From Jiella soli (GTDB lineage Bacteria; Pseudomonadota; Alphaproteobacteria; Rhizobiales; Rhizobiaceae), in the NCBI RefSeq assembly GCF_020615385.1, contig NZ_JAJAVB010000016.1:173332-237331 (forward strand): DNA of 64,000 bases. Direction: 5' to 3'. Shown one piece after another: positions 7,453 through 50,325 of the stretch (positions are counted from its first letter, which is position 1; every line of letters begins with the position of its first letter). Both the position numbers and the translations under genes were made by a program. The notes under the pieces are model-generated. The model ran no database searches and had not been told where the DNA came from. It was given only the letters and a program-made list of their open reading frames with translations.

Positions 7453-10400
7453 ATGACTGCCATGCCGCAAGCCTTTTCCGCCCCCTTCGCACCGGACGAC
7501 ACGGCTGCCGTCGCCGCGCTGCTGGAAGCCTCCAGAGGCTGGACGCACGAGGAGGCGGCGGTCGACAGGCGGGCGCGCAAGCTGGTCGAGGGCATCCGCA
7601 AGGCCGCGGGCGGCATCGGCGGCGTCGAGGACTTCCTGCGCGAGTTCGGCCTGTCGAGCCGCGAGGGGCTGGCGCTGATGATCCTCGCCGAGGCGCTGCT
7701 CCGCGTGCCGGACGCCAAGACGCAGGACCGGCTGATCGAGGACAAGATCGGGACCGGCGACTGGGCCCATCACGAGGGCGGCGAGGACCGCATGCTGACG
7801 GCGGCTTCCGCCTGGGCGCTCGGCATCTCGGCCCGCATCATCCGTCCCGGCGAGACCCCGCAGGGCGTCATGGCCGGCATGGTCAAGCGGCTCGGGGCGC
7901 CGGCCGTGCGCACCGCGACGCGCCAGGCGATGCGCTTCCTCGGACGCCATTTCGTGCTTGGCGAGACGATCGAGGACGCGCTGGAGCGGGCGCGCGGCTT
8001 CGAGAAGAAGGGGTACCGCCACTCCTACGACATGCTGGGCGAGGGTGCCCGGACCGGCGAGGACGCCGAACGCTACTTCAAGTCATATGCCGACGCGATC
8101 GAGGCGATCGGGCGCAAGGCGGGCAACAAGAAGCTGCCGGACCGGCCGGGCATCTCGGTCAAGCTGTCGGCCCTTCATCCGCGCTACCAGCCGATCCAGC
8201 GCGAACGGGTAATGAAGGAGATCGTCCCGAAGGTCGTCGCCCTCGCGCGGCAGGCCCAGAGCTTCGACCTCAATTTGACCATCGACGCCGAGGAAGCCGA
8301 GCGGCTGGAACTCTCGCTCGACGTCATCGACGCCGTCGCGAGGGAACTCGACTTCAGAGGCTGGGAGGGCTTCGGCCTCGCCATCCAGGCCTATCAGAAG
8401 CGCACGCTCGCGGTGATCGAGCATATCGACCAGCTGGCGAGTGCCCGCGGCATCAAGATGATGGTCCGCCTAGTCAAGGGCGCCTATTGGGATACGGAGG
8501 TCAAGCATGCGCAGGAAAAGGGGCTGGAGGGCTATCCGGTCTATACGCGCAAGCCGGCGACCGATCTCTCCTATCTCGTCGCCGCCAAGGCCCTGCTCGA
8601 CAAGCGCGCGCGGCTTTACCCGCAATTTGCCACCCACAACGCCCTGACCGTCGCGACCATCCTGGAAATGGCCGGCGAGGACGTCTCGGGCTTCGAGTTC
8701 CAGCGGCTCCACGGCATGGGCGAGGCGCTCTACGAGACCATGCGCAAGACCGCCGGCACGCAGGTCGCCTGCCGCATCTATGCGCCTGTCGGCGGCTATC
8801 GCGACCTCCTCGCCTATCTGGTGCGCCGGCTCCTGGAAAACGGCGCCAACTCCTCCTTCGTCGCCATGGTGGGCGACGAGGATGTGCCGATCGACGCGCT
8901 TCTGGTGCGCCCACGCGACAAGCTCGAGGAGGGGCCCGCCCGCCACGCCAAGATCGGCCTGCCGAAGGGCCTCTTCGGCGAACGGATCAACTCGAAGGGC
9001 ATCGAGATCGGCGATCGCCGGGCTGTGGCGCGGTTCGTCGAAAGCCGCGACAGGACGAAGCTTGCGGGTGCGGAAGCCAAGTGCGGCTTCTCCGCCGGGT
9101 CGAGCGAGGCGGTGGAGATCCGCTCGCCGATCGACGGAAGCGTCGTCGGCAAGAGCCACCATCTGTCCGCCGAGGCGGCAACGGCGCTCGTCGCGGAGGC
9201 CGCGCGCCATGTCCGGGCGGCGGAAGCCGTCAAGCCGGCCGAGCGCGCGAAGCTTCTGCGCAAGGCGGCCGACATGATGGAGGCCGAGAGCGGCCCCCTG
9301 ATGAAGCTCCTCGCGGCCGAAGCCGGCAAGACGATCGACGACGGAATCGCCGAGATCCGCGAGGCGGTCGACTTCCTGCGCTTTTATGCGAGCGAGGCCG
9401 AGCGGCTGTTTTCGGCGCCGACGATCCTGCCGGGTCCGACCGGCGAGGAGAACCGGCTCGTCTACCGCTCGCGCGGCGTCGCGGTCTGCATCTCGCCGTG
9501 GAACTTCCCGCTGGCGATCTTCACCGGCCAAGTCGCGGCCGCGCTCGCCGGCGGCAATGTCGTCATCGCCAAGCCGGCCGAGCAGACGCCGCTCGTTGCC
9601 GCCCATGCGGTTCGCCTGCTGCACGAGGCGGGCTTCTCCAAGGAGCATCTCTATCTCGCGCCCGGCGACGGCTCGGCCGGCGCGGCGCTGACCTCGCATC
9701 CGGCGACCGCGGTCGTCGCCTTTACCGGATCGACCGAGACGGCGCATCTCATCAACCGCGCGCTCGCCGCCCGCAACGCGCCGATCGCGCCGCTGATCGC
9801 CGAGACCGGCGGTATCAACGGGCTGATCGTCGATGCGACGGCGCTGCCCGAGCAGGTGGCGGACGATGTCGTGATGTCGGCCTTCCGCTCGGCCGGCCAG
9901 CGCTGCTCGGCGCTGCGGCTCCTGTTCGTCCAGGAGGACGTCGCCGACAAGATGGTTGAGATGATCGCCGGCGCAGCGGCGGAGCTGACGATCGGCGATC
10001 CGCATCATCTGTCCACCGATATCGGACCGGTGATCGACGCCGAGCAGCTGAAGATGCTGACCGACCATGCGGCGAGGATGGAGCGCGAGCAGAAGGTGGT
10101 CTTCAAGGGCCGGTTGCCGCGAGACCTGCCGGCGGCGGGCCACTGGTTCGCGCCCCGGATTGTCGAACTCGACAGGGCGGAATCCCTCGACCGCGAGGTC
10201 TTCGGGCCGATCCTGCACGTGGTGCGCTGGAAGGCGGGCGAACTCGACAAGGTCTGCGCGGCGATCGAGAAGACCGGCTACGGGCTGACGCTCGGCATTC
10301 ACAGCCGCATCAACGACACGGCGCTCACCGTCGCGGACCGGCTGACGGTCGGGAACGTCTATGTCAACCGCAACATCATCGGCGCGATCGTCGGCTCCCA

Positions 10401-10545
10401 GCCCTTCGGCGGCTCCGGCCTGTCGGGCACCGGGCCCAAGGCCGGCGGCCCGAACTACATAGTAAGGTTCGCTCGCGAACAGGTTATCTCGGTGAATACT
10501 GCGGCCGCCGGCGGCAATGCCAGTCTGATCGCGATGGAATCGTAG
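7453..10545 (+). CDS. putA: Bifunctional proline dehydrogenase / L-glutamate gamma-semialdehyde dehydrogenase
   Basis: 1030 residues. It oxidises proline to pyrroline-5-carboxylate with FAD and then oxidises the hydrolysed semialdehyde to glutamate with NAD+. The proline dehydrogenase barrel spans ~90-470 (RLVKGAYWD at 339-347), and the aldehyde dehydrogenase domain spans ~520-1000 with catalytic Glu784 (AETGG) and Cys818 (GQRCSA). The protein starts directly with the alpha-helical arm and lacks the N-terminal ribbon-helix-helix of E. coli PutA, so it is a short, non-DNA-binding PutA. A GGAG 7 nt before the ATG supports the start. It is divergent from an Lrp-family regulator. putP, the likely proline importer, is 23 kb away at 33.3-34.8 kb. 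Confidence 0.96.
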
Positions 10546-10584
10546 CAAACGGGTGACAGCCCATCGCCGTGACCTGTGCTAGAC

Positions 10585-10748
10585 ATATCTTGTCGTCAGC
10601 GGTTCGACGCTTCGGCCGGTGTCCTCCCACCCGGCCGCTGTGGCAGCCCGATATACGACGGCATCGTCTTGAAGGCGTTACTCCTCCCAACGCCGCGTAA
10701 AGACGACTTCCGAATGAAGAGCCCGGTGCAGCGCACCGGGCTTCTTTC
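10585..10748 (+). ncRNA. Candidate sRNA with two anti-Shine-Dalgarno loops (alpha-r14/cuckoo-like)
   Basis: Between putA and fhs three stem-loops follow in series. Hairpin 1 is CGGCCGG (10613-10619) with CCGGCCG (10631-10637), a perfect 7-bp stem whose 11-nt loop contains TCCTCCC. Hairpin 2 is GGCGTT (10674-10679) with AACGCC (10689-10694), a perfect 6-bp stem whose 9-nt loop is ACTCCTCCC. Hairpin 3 is an intrinsic terminator at 10720-10747. Pyrimidine loops complementary to the Shine-Dalgarno sequence plus a Rho-independent terminator are the hallmark of the rhizobial alpha-r14/NfeR1 and 'cuckoo' CUCCUCCC sRNAs, which pair with ribosome binding sites of target mRNAs. The 5' end is approximate, and I cannot exclude processing from the putA 3' end. 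Confidence 0.68.
10720..10747 (+). terminator. Rho-independent terminator behind the sRNA candidate
   Basis: Perfect 9-bp GC-rich stem (GCCCGGTGC at 10721-10729, GCACCGGGC at 10733-10741) with a 3-nt loop, extended by A10720-T10742 and followed by TTCTTTC. It ends the putA/sRNA transcription unit before fhs. Confidence 0.85.
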
Positions 10749-10952: not shown

Positions 10953-12632
10953 ATGACCGAGGTTTTATCCGACATCGCCATTGCGCGCGCCGCCACCAAG
11001 CGACCGATCCGAGAGATCGCCGAGAAGCTGGGCATCTCCGAGGCCGACATCGTCCCCTATGGCCACGACAAGGCGAAGATCTCGGCCGGCTTCATCAAAT
11101 CGCTGGAGGGGCGCCCCACGGGCCGCCTGATCCTCGTCACGGCGGTCAACCCGACCCCGGCCGGGGAGGGCAAGACGACCACCACGGTCGGGCTTGGCGA
11201 CGGGCTGAACCGCATCGGCAAGAAGGCGATGATCTGCATCCGCGAGGCGTCGCTCGGTCCGAATTTCGGTATGAAAGGCGGGGCCGCCGGCGGCGGCTAT
11301 GCGCAGGTCGTGCCGATGGAGGAAATGAACCTCCATTTCACCGGCGACTTCCACGCGATCACCACGGCGCACAATCTCCTCGCCGCGATGATCGACAACC
11401 ACATCCACTGGGGCAACGAGCTCGGCATCGATTCCCGGCGCGTCACCTTCCGCCGCGTTCTGGACATGAACGACCGGGCGCTGCGCGGCGTCGTCGTCTC
11501 GCTGGGTGGCCCGGCCAACGGCTTTCCGCGCCAGTCCGGCTTCGACATCACGGTCGCGTCCGAGGTCATGGCGATCCTCTGCCTCGCTGGCGACCTTAAG
11601 GACCTCGAACGCCGGCTCGGCGACATCATCGTCGGCTATCGCCGCGACAAGAGCCCGGTGACGGCCCGCGACCTCAAGGCCGACGGCGCCATGGCCGTCC
11701 TCCTCAAGGACGCGATGCAGCCGAACCTCGTGCAGACGCTGGAGAACAATCCCGCCTTCGTCCATGGCGGACCCTTCGCCAACATCGCCCATGGCTGCAA
11801 TTCGGTCGTCGCCACCAAGACCGCCCTGCGCCTTGCCGACTATGTCGTCACCGAGGCCGGCTTCGGCGCCGATCTCGGGGCGGAGAAGTTCTTCGACATC
11901 AAGTGCCGCAAGGCCGGGCTGAAGCCCGACGCGGCGGTGATCGTCGCGACGGTGCGGGCGATGAAGATGAATGGCGGCGTCGCCAAGGCCGACCTCGGGA
12001 CGGAGGACGTCGCGGCGGTCCGGCGCGGCTGCGCCAATCTCGGCCGGCATATCGAGAACGTCAAAGGCTTCGGCGTTCCGGTGGTGGTCGCGATCAACCA
12101 TTTCGTCTCCGACACCGAGGCGGAGATCGAGGCGCTCAAGGCCTATGCGGCCGAACTCGGCACGGAGGCGATCCTCTGCCGGCACTGGGCGAAGGGCTCG
12201 GCAGGCATCGAAGACCTCGCCCGCAGAGTGGCGGACCTCGCCGATTCCGGCGTGGCCGACTTCCAGCCGATCTATGGCGACGATCTGACCCTGCTCGACA
12301 AGATCGAGACGGTCGTGAAACGCATCTATCGCGGGGCGGAGGTGACGGCGCCGCAGGCCGTCCGCGACCAGCTCGCCGCCTGGGAAGAGGCCGGCTACGG
12401 CAAGCTGCCGGTCTGCATGGCGAAGACGCAGTATTCCTTCTCCACCGATCCGACGCTTCGCGGCGCGCCGGAGGGCTTTTCCGTGCATGTGCGCGAAGTG
12501 CGCCTGTCGGCGGGGGCCGGCTTCGTCGTCGCGATCTGCGGAGAGATCATGACCATGCCCGGCCTGCCGTCGAAGCCGGCGGCGGAATCGATCCGGCTGA
12601 ATGCGGACGGCGAAATCGAGGGGCTGTTCTGA
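10953..12632 (+). CDS. fhs: Formate-tetrahydrofolate ligase
   Basis: 559 residues, the usual family length. It makes 10-formyl-tetrahydrofolate from formate, THF and ATP in the cytoplasm, feeding purine and one-carbon pools or running in reverse during demethylation-based catabolism. The ATP-binding loop TPAGEGKT is at 68-75, preceded by the conserved KISAGF segment, with [15 protein letters not shown] further on. The ATG at 10953 has GGGGAGG just before it; upstream in-frame residues do not resemble the family. Co-location with choline/betaine uptake fits use of one-carbon units released by betaine demethylation (inference). The next gene is convergent. Confidence 0.96.
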
Positions 12633-35195: not shown

Positions 35196-37037
35196 CTAGG
35201 ACTTGGCCTTCACATAGCGGCCCGGCGCATCCTCGATCGGCTTCAGCTTTCCGCCGCCGGGCTGCCGTGCCTCCACCTGTTCGCCCGAGAGTGGCGCGAT
35301 CCACTCCTGCCAGTGCGGCCACCAGGAGCCCGCCGTCTCCTTGGCGGCCAGAAGCCAGTCCTCGAAGCTGGCGACTTCCTTCGGCGCGGGGCCGGTCCAG
35401 AACTGGTACTTCTTCTTGCCCGGTGGATTGACGACGCCGGCGATATGGCCGGAGCCGGTGAGGACGTAGGTCACGTTCGAGCCGAAGGCCCGGCAGCCGG
35501 TGAACACGCTGCGGGCTGGCGCGATGTGATCTTCCTTGGTTGCGAGGTTGTAGATCGGGATCGTCACCTTGGAGAGGTCGAGCTTGACGCCGCCGATCTC
35601 CATCCGGCCGCACGACAGCCGGTTTTCGAGATAGCAGTTGCGCAGGTAGAAGAGGTGGTTCGCCTTCGGCATCCGCGTGGAATCGGCGTTCCAGTAGAGA
35701 AGGTCGAAGGGCAGCGGCTCCTTGCCCTTCAGATAGTTGTTGACGAAATAGGGCCAGATCAGATCGCCGGACCGCAGAAGGTTGAAGGCCGTCGCCATCT
35801 GCGAGCCGTCGAGATAGCCTCTGGCCTCCATCGATTCCTCGAGCGACTTGAGTTGGGCCTCGTCCACGAAGACCTTCAGATCGCCGGCATGGGTGAAGTC
35901 GATCTGGGTGGTCAGGAAGGTCGTCGAACTGATGCGCTCGTCGCCGCGCTGCTTCAGATAGGCGAGCGAGGCGCCGAGCAGCGTACCGCCGACGCAGTAG
36001 CCGACGGCGTTGACCTCCCGCTCGCCCGTCGCCGTCTCGACCGTGTCGAGGCCGAAGACGATGCCCTCCTCGATATAGTCCTTCCAGTCCTTGGCGGCCT
36101 GCTTCTCCGTCGGGTTCACCCAGGAGACGACGAAGACGGTGTGGCCCTGCGCGACGAGCCAGCCGATCAGGGACTTCTCCGGATTGAGGTCGAGGATGTA
36201 GAACTTGTTGATCCAGGGCGGCACGATCATCAGCGGCCGCTTGAACACGGTCTCGGTCTGCGGCGCGTACTGGATGATCTGGCAGACGTCGTTCTCGGCG
36301 ATCACCTTGCCGGGGCTGACGGCCATGTCGCGGCCGACCTCGTATTTGGAATAGTCGGCCTGCCGCAGTCGCAGGTTTCCGCCGCCGGCGGCCATGTCCT
36401 CGGCGAACATCTTCATTCCGCGCACGAGGTTCTCGCCATTGGAGGCGATCGTCTCCCGGTAGAGTTCGGGGTTGGTCAGCACGAAGTTGGACGGCGCGAC
36501 GGCGTTCGACAGCTGCTTGACGTAGAAGGCCGCCTTGTGGCGCGTGTGCTCGTCGAGCCCCTCGGTGCGGGTGACGAGGTCGTCGGCCCATTGTGAGGTC
36601 AGGAGATAGGTCTGCTTGATGAAGTCGAAGAAGAGATTCGAGTTCCAGCCTTCGTCGGCAAAGCGCCTGTCGCCCTTGGCGGGCTCGATCGGGGAGGGGG
36701 GATTGTCTCCCGCCAGCCGTCGGATCGAGTTGTTCCAGACGGTCAGGTAGCCGGCGAAGAGGCTGGTCTGCGCCTCCATCGCACGGGCGGGGTCGGTCAG
36801 CCAGTATTCCGACACGCGCGACAGCGTCTGGACCAGTTCGGCCATCGGGATCGGGCTGGAATCGACCGGCTCGCCCTTCTCGCGCGGAGCGACCCAGGCC
36901 GCGGCGGCCTTGCCGATCTGCTCGAGCATCCTCGCCATGTTGAGGGTGAAGGCCTCCGGGTCCTTGACGACGAACTCCTCGCCCGGCTGCCCCGTCTTCG
37001 CTCCACCGGGAGCGCTCCGTCCTTCCTCGGCGGCCAT
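35196..37037 (-). CDS. phaC: Class I poly(3-hydroxyalkanoate) synthase
   Basis: 613 residues from the ATG at 37037, chosen because GGGAGG lies 7 nt upstream; in-frame ATGs at 37052 and 37100 are alternatives that add a short basic tail. It polymerises 3-hydroxyacyl-CoA (typically 3-hydroxybutyryl-CoA) on storage granules. An N-terminal PhaC domain precedes the alpha/beta hydrolase core with catalytic Cys348 (GYCVGG lipase-like box), Asp503 (TKEDHIAP) and His531 (GSGHIAG). The length fits class I, with no PhaE or PhaR needed. phaA and phaB are not in the window. It is divergent from the following lipoprotein gene. Confidence 0.95.
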   Translation of the reverse strand: MAAEEGRSAPGGAKTGQPGEEFVVKDPEAFTLNMARMLEQIGKAAAAWVAPREKGEPVDSSPIPMAELVQTLSRVSEYWLTDPARAMEAQTSLFAGYLTVWNNSIRRLAGDNPPSPIEPAKGDRRFADEGWNSNLFFDFIKQTYLLTSQWADDLVTRTEGLDEHTRHKAAFYVKQLSNAVAPSNFVLTNPELYRETIASNGENLVRGMKMFAEDMAAGGGNLRLRQADYSKYEVGRDMAVSPGKVIAENDVCQIIQYAPQTETVFKRPLMIVPPWINKFYILDLNPEKSLIGWLVAQGHTVFVVSWVNPTEKQAAKDWKDYIEEGIVFGLDTVETATGEREVNAVGYCVGGTLLGASLAYLKQRGDERISSTTFLTTQIDFTHAGDLKVFVDEAQLKSLEESMEARGYLDGSQMATAFNLLRSGDLIWPYFVNNYLKGKEPLPFDLLYWNADSTRMPKANHLFYLRNCYLENRLSCGRMEIGGVKLDLSKVTIPIYNLATKEDHIAPARSVFTGCRAFGSNVTYVLTGSGHIAGVVNPPGKKKYQFWTGPAPKEVASFEDWLLAAKETAGSWWPHWQEWIAPLSGEQVEARQPGGGKLKPIEDAPGRYVKAKS

Positions 37038-37179
37038 GCTCGATCCTCCCATTTTCGACCGCTTGGCGGGCGCCGGTTTCGGCTTTACCACTCGATCCAT
37101 GCAGTCTTCGTTGGCGACACGCCGCGAATCCGACCAGAAGCGGACGTAATCGCTTTTGTAAATGCCGCAGGTGTAGGAT

Positions 37180-49638: not shown

Positions 49639-50081
49639 GCCAGCCGGCCGGGCGGCCGCTCTCGTCACATGTCGAAAGACGGCGGGAGAGGAAAGTCCGG
49701 GCTCCACGGAGAAACGGTGCCGGATAACGTCCGGCGGGGGCGACCCCAGGGAAAGTGCCACAGAAAGGAAACCGCCCCGCCTGCAGTGCGGCTCGTCGCG
49801 ATGAGCGTCGCGAGGTTTGAGCCGCAGTGCCGGCGGGGTAAGGGTGAAAGGGTGGGGTAAGAGCCCACCGCGTCTCTGGCAACAGCGGCGGCATGGTAAA
49901 CCCCACCGGGAGCAAGACCGAATAGGGACGACGCGGCGCATGGGACGGTGTCCCACCGCCGGCCTTTCTCCGGGCCAGTCGTCCGGGTGGGTTGCTCGAG
50001 GCGTCCCGCGAGGGACGTCCCAGAGGAATGGTCGCCAGGCGGCACTGCCGTCGACAGAACCCGGCTTACAGGCCGGCTGGC
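49639..50081 (+). ncRNA. rnpB: RNase P RNA (bacterial class A)
   Basis: Recognised by the conserved core: GGAAAGTCCGGGCTCC near 49690-49705, CAGGGAAAGTGCCACAGAAA near 49747-49766, a GGTAAACCCC block near 49895, and the 3' block ACAGAACCCGGCTTACAG (50055-50072). The ends are fixed by a perfect 11-bp P1 helix: GCCAGCCGGCC (49639-49649) pairs with GGCCGGCTGGC (50071-50081). It is the catalytic RNA that cuts tRNA 5' leaders. Length ~443 nt is normal for the group. Location just upstream of mraZ is common in Hyphomicrobiales. Confidence 0.97.
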
Positions 50082-50325
50082 ACATTAACGTCCTCCGACG
50101 TGACGCTTTGAGCGGCTCGATCCGCACGCCGCACGCCGCGCGCCGCCCGCCGTCCGTTGGCCGCGACCACTCTCCATTCCATGAAATTTTTTCGACAGGA
50201 AACGACCCTGGCGCGGGAGCTTTTTTCGCTCGGAACTTTCAGCCGCTTCAGGGCCCTATCCCAGCCCCTGCGGTGAAGCATTACCGAACCAGTATATAAC
50301 ATATCCGAAAAGGAATAGTTTAATA

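Follow-up and report, generated by a model that had tools for sequence, protein, structure and literature searches.

In the alpha-r14 RNAs, each of three hairpins with hypervariable stems carries an unpaired anti-Shine-Dalgarno (aSD) motif in its loop, and these RNAs act on translation initiation regions through any of the three motifs redundantly, according to the available parts of two papers (PMC7143759, PMC10746234). The CcsR RNAs occur in several copies and are transcribed together with a DUF1127 gene, in the ccaF1-CcsR arrangement (PMC10253847, available part). An aSD motif is present in both stem loops of RS0680a of Rhodobacter, and SmelA075 and SmelA099 of Sinorhizobium have three and four hairpins with CCUCCUCCC loops; a single family whose members differ in module number was proposed for such RNAs (PMC3927594, section 2.7). 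GsrN of Caulobacter pairs through an exposed C-rich loop with G-rich mRNA leaders, as described in the available part of PMC5869019.

We analysed a 64,000-nt stretch of Jiella soli DNA (the window), in which a candidate sRNA gene of this known kind lies between putA and fhs (Table 1). Both aSD motifs that an earlier note had placed in this interval are present on the + strand, TCCTCCC in the first hairpin (HP1) and CTCCTCCC at 10681-10688 in the second (HP2), reading UCCUCCC and CUCCUCCC as RNA; the second motif occurs nowhere else in the window on either strand. The same note had called both hairpins perfect, which is true of HP2 with its 6-bp inner stem, but slightly too strong for HP1, whose 7-bp stem CGGCCGG/CCGGCCG has a possible GTG/CAC extension past a one-base bulge. 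When the 158-nt candidate was folded, every base of the HP2 loop was unpaired at a probability of 1.0; in the HP1 motif the five middle bases were unpaired at 1.0, the first at 0.67 and the last at 0.39. What had been described as a strong intrinsic terminator proved to be a stable hairpin, but its tail, TTCTTTCG, is interrupted and has no clean U-run, and the hairpin was absent from the output of a consensus terminator scan. Its loop carries an aSD motif in several relatives and is without the motif in this window.

Table 1. Positions of the candidate sRNA, its parts and neighbours, and other features in the window
Feature	Position	Strand	Remarks
putA (bifunctional proline dehydrogenase / P5C dehydrogenase, 1030 aa)	7453..10545	+	left neighbour of the RNA; ORF; name taken from the earlier note, in agreement with homologous PutA loci across the family
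Conserved block GCCGTGACCTGTGCTA	10566..10581	+	5' of HP1; possible promoter part; from motif search
Candidate sRNA	10590..10748	+	from structure and conservation; 5' end predicted
Hairpin 1 (HP1)	10613..10637	+	aSD loop TCCTCCC at 10622-10628
Hairpin 2 (HP2)	10664..10706	+	outer helix TCGTCTT/AAGACGA, inner helix GGCGTT/AACGCC
HP2 aSD loop ACTCCTCCC	10680-10688	+	ACUCCUCCC as RNA
Terminator-like hairpin (HP3)	10716..10748	+	GC-rich; interrupted U-tract
fhs (formate--tetrahydrofolate ligase)	10953..12632	+	right neighbour; Pfam FTHFS, E 2.3e-268; N-terminus via tblastn
phaC (PHB polymerase)	35196..37037	-	Pfam PhaC_N, E 4.7e-74; best candidate target in the window
RNase P RNA class A	49640-50084	+	292.8 bits

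Folding of the 201-nt region gave z = -3.5 against dinucleotide shuffles, and z = -2.7 for the opposite strand. With an aSD hairpin defined by TCCTCC in the loop, a stem of at least 6 and a loop of at most 12, two such hairpins no more than 100 nt apart were seen, counting both strands, in 2 of 200 windows shuffled by dinucleotides. Single aSD hairpins are common enough to arise by chance, since the window contains five and a shuffle 2.6 on average. Conservation in relatives is stronger evidence than this shuffle test. At the gathering threshold, the sole Rfam match in the window was RNase P RNA.

The C-terminal 137 residues of PutA were used to query 394 genomes of the family, 366 of which matched, and we examined 70 putA loci: the 30 top-ranking ones, with flanks, and 40 of those ranked next. 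Among named proteins, those of Aurantimonas and Jiella are most similar to the window PutA (the ten nearest show 75-82% identity). The 22 best putA loci represent an Aurantimonas/Jiella/Aureimonas group, a label that rests on six of them, and the genus of the window itself is represented by one genome in the collection. The RNA occupies the putA-fhs slot in all 22 of these best loci of the clade, and is present in four further named loci (L044, L045, L049 and L080). The earlier note had named loss of the loop sequences in close relatives as the observation that would speak against the RNA; the loops are kept across the clade. Their spacing from each other is 48-65 nt in 15 representatives, and between the putA stop codon and the first loop lie 78-94 nt in all but one of 15 representatives, the exception having 142 nt. 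Outside this group, paired aSD hairpins within 420 nt after putA were found in none of 48 loci from other genera (8 + 40), a range that farther copies would escape, and three of these loci (L130, L203, L205) contain one weak or relaxed hairpin match. Since fhs is in view beside putA in 22 of these 48 loci, the putA-fhs neighbourhood is older than the RNA. Whole-DNA searches of relatives and plasmids retrieved no convincing homologue, because the stems diverge too fast; three weak matches came up in relatives.

The RNA lies directly 3' of putA in 17 of the 22 best loci, in the same direction and 78-142 nt past the stop codon, an arrangement that fits an sRNA cut from the 3' UTR of the putA mRNA, whose level would then follow proline catabolism. 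Such an origin has precedents in CcsR1-4, which are cut from ccaF1, and in other R. sphaeroides sRNAs (PMC8625941, available part), and it would agree with the promoter scan that gave no match (see below). We nevertheless regard it as unlikely. In the five remaining genomes the RNA is displaced by 1.1-4.6 kb from putA and sits directly before fhs (1.2 kb in G036, 1.1 kb in G410, about 2.2 kb in G381, 3.4 kb in G189 and 4.6 kb in G344); in the one annotated case (L050, an Aurantimonas, genome G036), the intervening genes are a MarR gene and, on the opposite strand, a SnoaL-like gene. Because other genes, including at least one opposite-strand case, intervene in these five genomes, dependence on putA transcription is unlikely, and the conserved block 5' of HP1 also argues against processing from putA. 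The possible functional link to proline catabolism that had been put forward for this RNA rests on its position. One of the genomes with inserted genes (G344) carries a terC RNA element about 280 nt after putA (RF03067; L115 2191-2251, + strand; 62.2 bits, over the cut-off).

That all five displaced copies remain directly before fhs could point instead to a cis element of fhs, such as a leader, an attenuator or a riboswitch-like structure. This is very unlikely, since the RNA is intact in four of the 17 adjacent genomes although their examined flank showed no fhs (L105, L109, L123 and L124), and also in A. marina (L051), where a GMC oxidoreductase gene on the opposite strand follows. In addition, the terminator-like hairpin precedes fhs, and the Shine-Dalgarno (SD) sequence of fhs differs between species by eye. 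The RNA is thus tied to neither putA nor fhs, which favours an independent gene.

Folding an alignment of 17 copies gave a poor consensus structure (-3.66 kcal/mol, 13 pairs, with HP2 unpredicted) because the aligner could not align the hypervariable stems. In place of a covariance model built from this alignment, we used an arm-swap test in which native arm pairs were compared with cross-species chimeras (16 representatives, 2000 permutations; the near-duplicates L108, L113, L119, L044, L045 and L080 and the displaced copies except L050 were omitted). Native pairs were more stable than chimeras in HP1 (-18.4 vs -12.0 kcal/mol, n = 16), HP2 (-17.8 vs -12.2 kcal/mol, n = 15) and HP3 (-27.7 vs -19.2 kcal/mol, n = 9), a mean native advantage of 5.6-8.5 kcal/mol across the three hairpins, and for each of them none of the 2000 permutations was as stable. 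Control arms taken around the midpoint between hairpins showed no difference (-10.7 vs -10.6). The stems therefore covary, with 32-35% identity in the stem arms as compared to 88-93% in the loops, the latter value being partly by construction as the loop motif served as anchor. An aSD-type motif was also found in the terminator loop of 9 of the 16 representatives.

Stable hairpins close after a stop codon could be no more than a transcription terminator and stability structure of putA, the C-rich loops being incidental. This is extremely unlikely, as two separate loops retain the same 6-7 bases against a background of changing stems, and copies away from putA have these bases too.

Some copies are imperfect. 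Of the 17 adjacent copies, 15 gave at least two motif hairpins in an automatic fold test and the other two gave one each, namely the window itself (L104) and L120, whose HP1 loop reads CCCTCCC. One HP2 (G020/L121) is without the motif, and in L225 the HP2 stem has 4 bp. In the arm-swap test the native HP2 was matched by 21 of 28 chimeras for L050, 11 for L106, 8 for L125 and 7 for L116. The weakest copy is that of G381, with an inner HP1 stem of 4 bp and a C-rich middle loop without UCCUCC; its terminator loop carries UCCUCCC.

Scanning the region for a sigma-70-type promoter gave no match, and the pattern TTGAC-N15-19-TAnnnT was found in none of 25 sequences. An EcfG promoter, attractive by eye for the Jiella copies, was rejected, its consensus GGAAC-N15-18-CGTT occurring in 0/25 sequences and a relaxed form in 6/25. 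The LsrB-type site of NfeR1, TGCA-N6-GCAT, was likewise found in none of the 25. A conserved block lies 44-77 nt before the first loop and reads AACYTGYGCTA in most Aurantimonas/Jiella copies and CAAGCYTCRC in Aureimonas-type copies. Its information content over 19 non-redundant upstream regions is 13.4 bits, as compared to 9.4-10.1 bits in 8 shuffled sets, an excess to which shared ancestry contributes in part. The block fits none of the promoter consensuses tried.

The overall architecture is like that of the alpha-r14 and cuckoo/CcsR RNAs, as the earlier note had recognized, with hypervariable stems, fixed aSD loops and a terminator. As far as the available descriptions of alpha-r14/NfeR1 (RF02344) go, the putA-side RNA shares with it the hypervariable stems with conserved loops, loops of the CCUCCUCCC type, a GC-rich 3' hairpin and the presence of several loops suited to ribosome binding sites (RBSs). 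It differs in carrying two aSD loops rather than three, so that in the window two of three hairpins have the motif that ar14 RNAs have in all three, in having no LsrB-type site, and in being a single copy in the putA-fhs slot. The missing LsrB site may not exclude it from the family, as the available part of the literature ties parts of the NfeR1 promoter to plant symbionts. Formal alpha-r14 membership did not withstand the covariance-model check, with the Rfam ar14 model scoring 28.7 bits against a cut-off of 58.8. The same model matched at the RNA in 11 of 20 scanned loci of the clade (E up to 1), with a best score of 40.0 bits and none reaching 58.8; it exceeds the cut-off in 137 of 151 family genomes, and the putA-side RNA is not among the 8 ar14 matches of its own whole genome.

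The cuckoo/CcsR1-4 RNAs (RSs0680) resemble the putA-side RNA in having two aSD stem loops, but differ from it in their DUF1127 partner (the CIN1 locus) and tandem copies, its own neighbours being putA and fhs. Relatives of the putA-side RNA vary between two or three aSD loops, much as SmelA075 and SmelA099 vary; both of these are multicopy and belong to another lineage and another genomic place. GsrN differs in being an activator of katG under the control of the general-stress sigma factor, according to the available part of its description; the EcfG element was found in none of the 25 sequences here. Our searches of the literature on Aurantimonas/Jiella aSD RNAs and on putA-fhs sRNAs yielded no account of this locus, and a prior listing in the cuckoo family paper is possible.

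On another contig of the same genome lies an array (G000:C45:28034-28528, - strand; locus L098) of four ar14 units in tandem directly downstream of a DUF1127 gene, an organization like that of ccaF1-CcsR; every unit has three aSD-loop hairpins. The putA-side RNA therefore represents an additional locus of this kind, distinct from the DUF1127-linked array. It shares the loop motif and hairpin plan with the array and has a weak ar14 score, and could thus be a recently copied or degenerate ar14/cuckoo array unit that is functionless by itself. We give this a very slight chance: nucleotide similarity to the array does not extend beyond the motif (best non-self match 22 bases, E 0.14), the RNA holds the same slot clade-wide, and its stems covary. 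By DNA search it is single-copy in its own genome, and four other tandem TCCTCCC sites in that genome do not form paired aSD hairpins with a terminator.

Further elements with such motifs were seen in relatives. Three loci of one genus (L214, G020:C12; L215, G145:C3; L216, G271:C13) share a GCAAAC.../...GTTTGC hairpin with a TCCTCCC loop, followed by a long terminator hairpin with GGATCCTCCCCC, and this element is likely another aSD RNA. A possible third is found in three Aurantimonas-type loci of one genus (L217, G064:C1; L218, G395:C1; L219, G224:C1), in which three near-identical TCCTCCC sites spanning about 53 nt are followed by a strong terminator. At L211, L212, L213 and L220, TCCTCCC is the other strand of GGGAGGAG a few bases before an ATG, and by eye these sites look target-like, not RNA-like.

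The expectation that such an RNA targets transport genes was neither borne out nor excluded in the window, where the best-placed site belongs to phaC and not to a transporter. The phaC SD, TGGGAGGA (core 37044-37050), is complementary to both RNA loops, and the site reads UGGGAGGA (8 nt). Its predicted duplex with the HP2 loop has an energy of -15.4 kcal/mol, as compared to -12.5 for a sodium:solute symporter, -12.2 for fhs, -6.0 for putA and -2.8 for an OpuAC-type protein. The core GGGAGGA is found in 16 of 21 clade orthologues of phaC, where the surrounding sequence is not kept, and in 7 of 25 outside the clade (Fisher p 0.003, with kinship ignored); the remaining clade SDs comprise two GGGAGGC, two CGGAGGA and one with GGGAG only. 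One clade genome (G075) gave no phaC match, nor did 2 of 27 genomes outside the clade, where some start codons are uncertain. In the window and 53 loci, ORFs of at least 150 aa are preceded by 41 GGAGG-type sites, four of which are GGGAGGA, this phaC site included. Strong SDs exist for ribosomes alone. On sequence grounds, the retention of GGGAGGA makes phaC a likelier target of the clade's aSD RNAs, from either locus, as the ar14/cuckoo array RNAs could read the site equally well. Autoregulation of putA through its own SD found no support, a GGGAGG match being absent from 11 putA start regions in which the choice of start is uncertain.

Taken together, the locus probably encodes a single-copy, trans-acting aSD-hairpin sRNA, fixed in the putA-fhs interval of the clade, that blocks RBSs. 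The RNA would be transcribed from the + strand, probably from its own promoter, and would end at the GC-rich hairpin. Its two rigid loops would present UCCUCCC and CUCCUCCC and pair in trans with the G-rich GGGAGGA RBSs of selected mRNAs, phaC presumably among them, keeping the ribosome off and thus repressing translation. The stems would act as scaffolds, constrained to pair but otherwise free to change in sequence. A more specific reading, which we put forward tentatively and consider rather doubtful, is that a lineage-specific aSD RNA was born in the putA-fhs interval of the clade ancestor and controls carbon storage through the phaC RBS; the clade would then keep the GGGAGGA of phaC as a match to the RNA and not to the 16S rRNA tail, and PHB synthesis would depend on the conditions under which the RNA is switched on.

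This conserved sRNA gene candidate is new as a locus and as a lineage-specific family, not in its mechanism, and if class membership alone holds, it would interest sRNA specialists without being a surprise. RNAs of this class are known mainly from multicopy arrays; this one would be a single-copy member with a stable position, and the Rfam model does not capture it. The alignment illustrates the evolution of such RNAs, with fixed loops, drifting stems and a terminator loop with or without the motif, and presents a clean gain of an RNA within an older putA-fhs neighbourhood. The locus also supplies a specific and testable candidate target, phaC.
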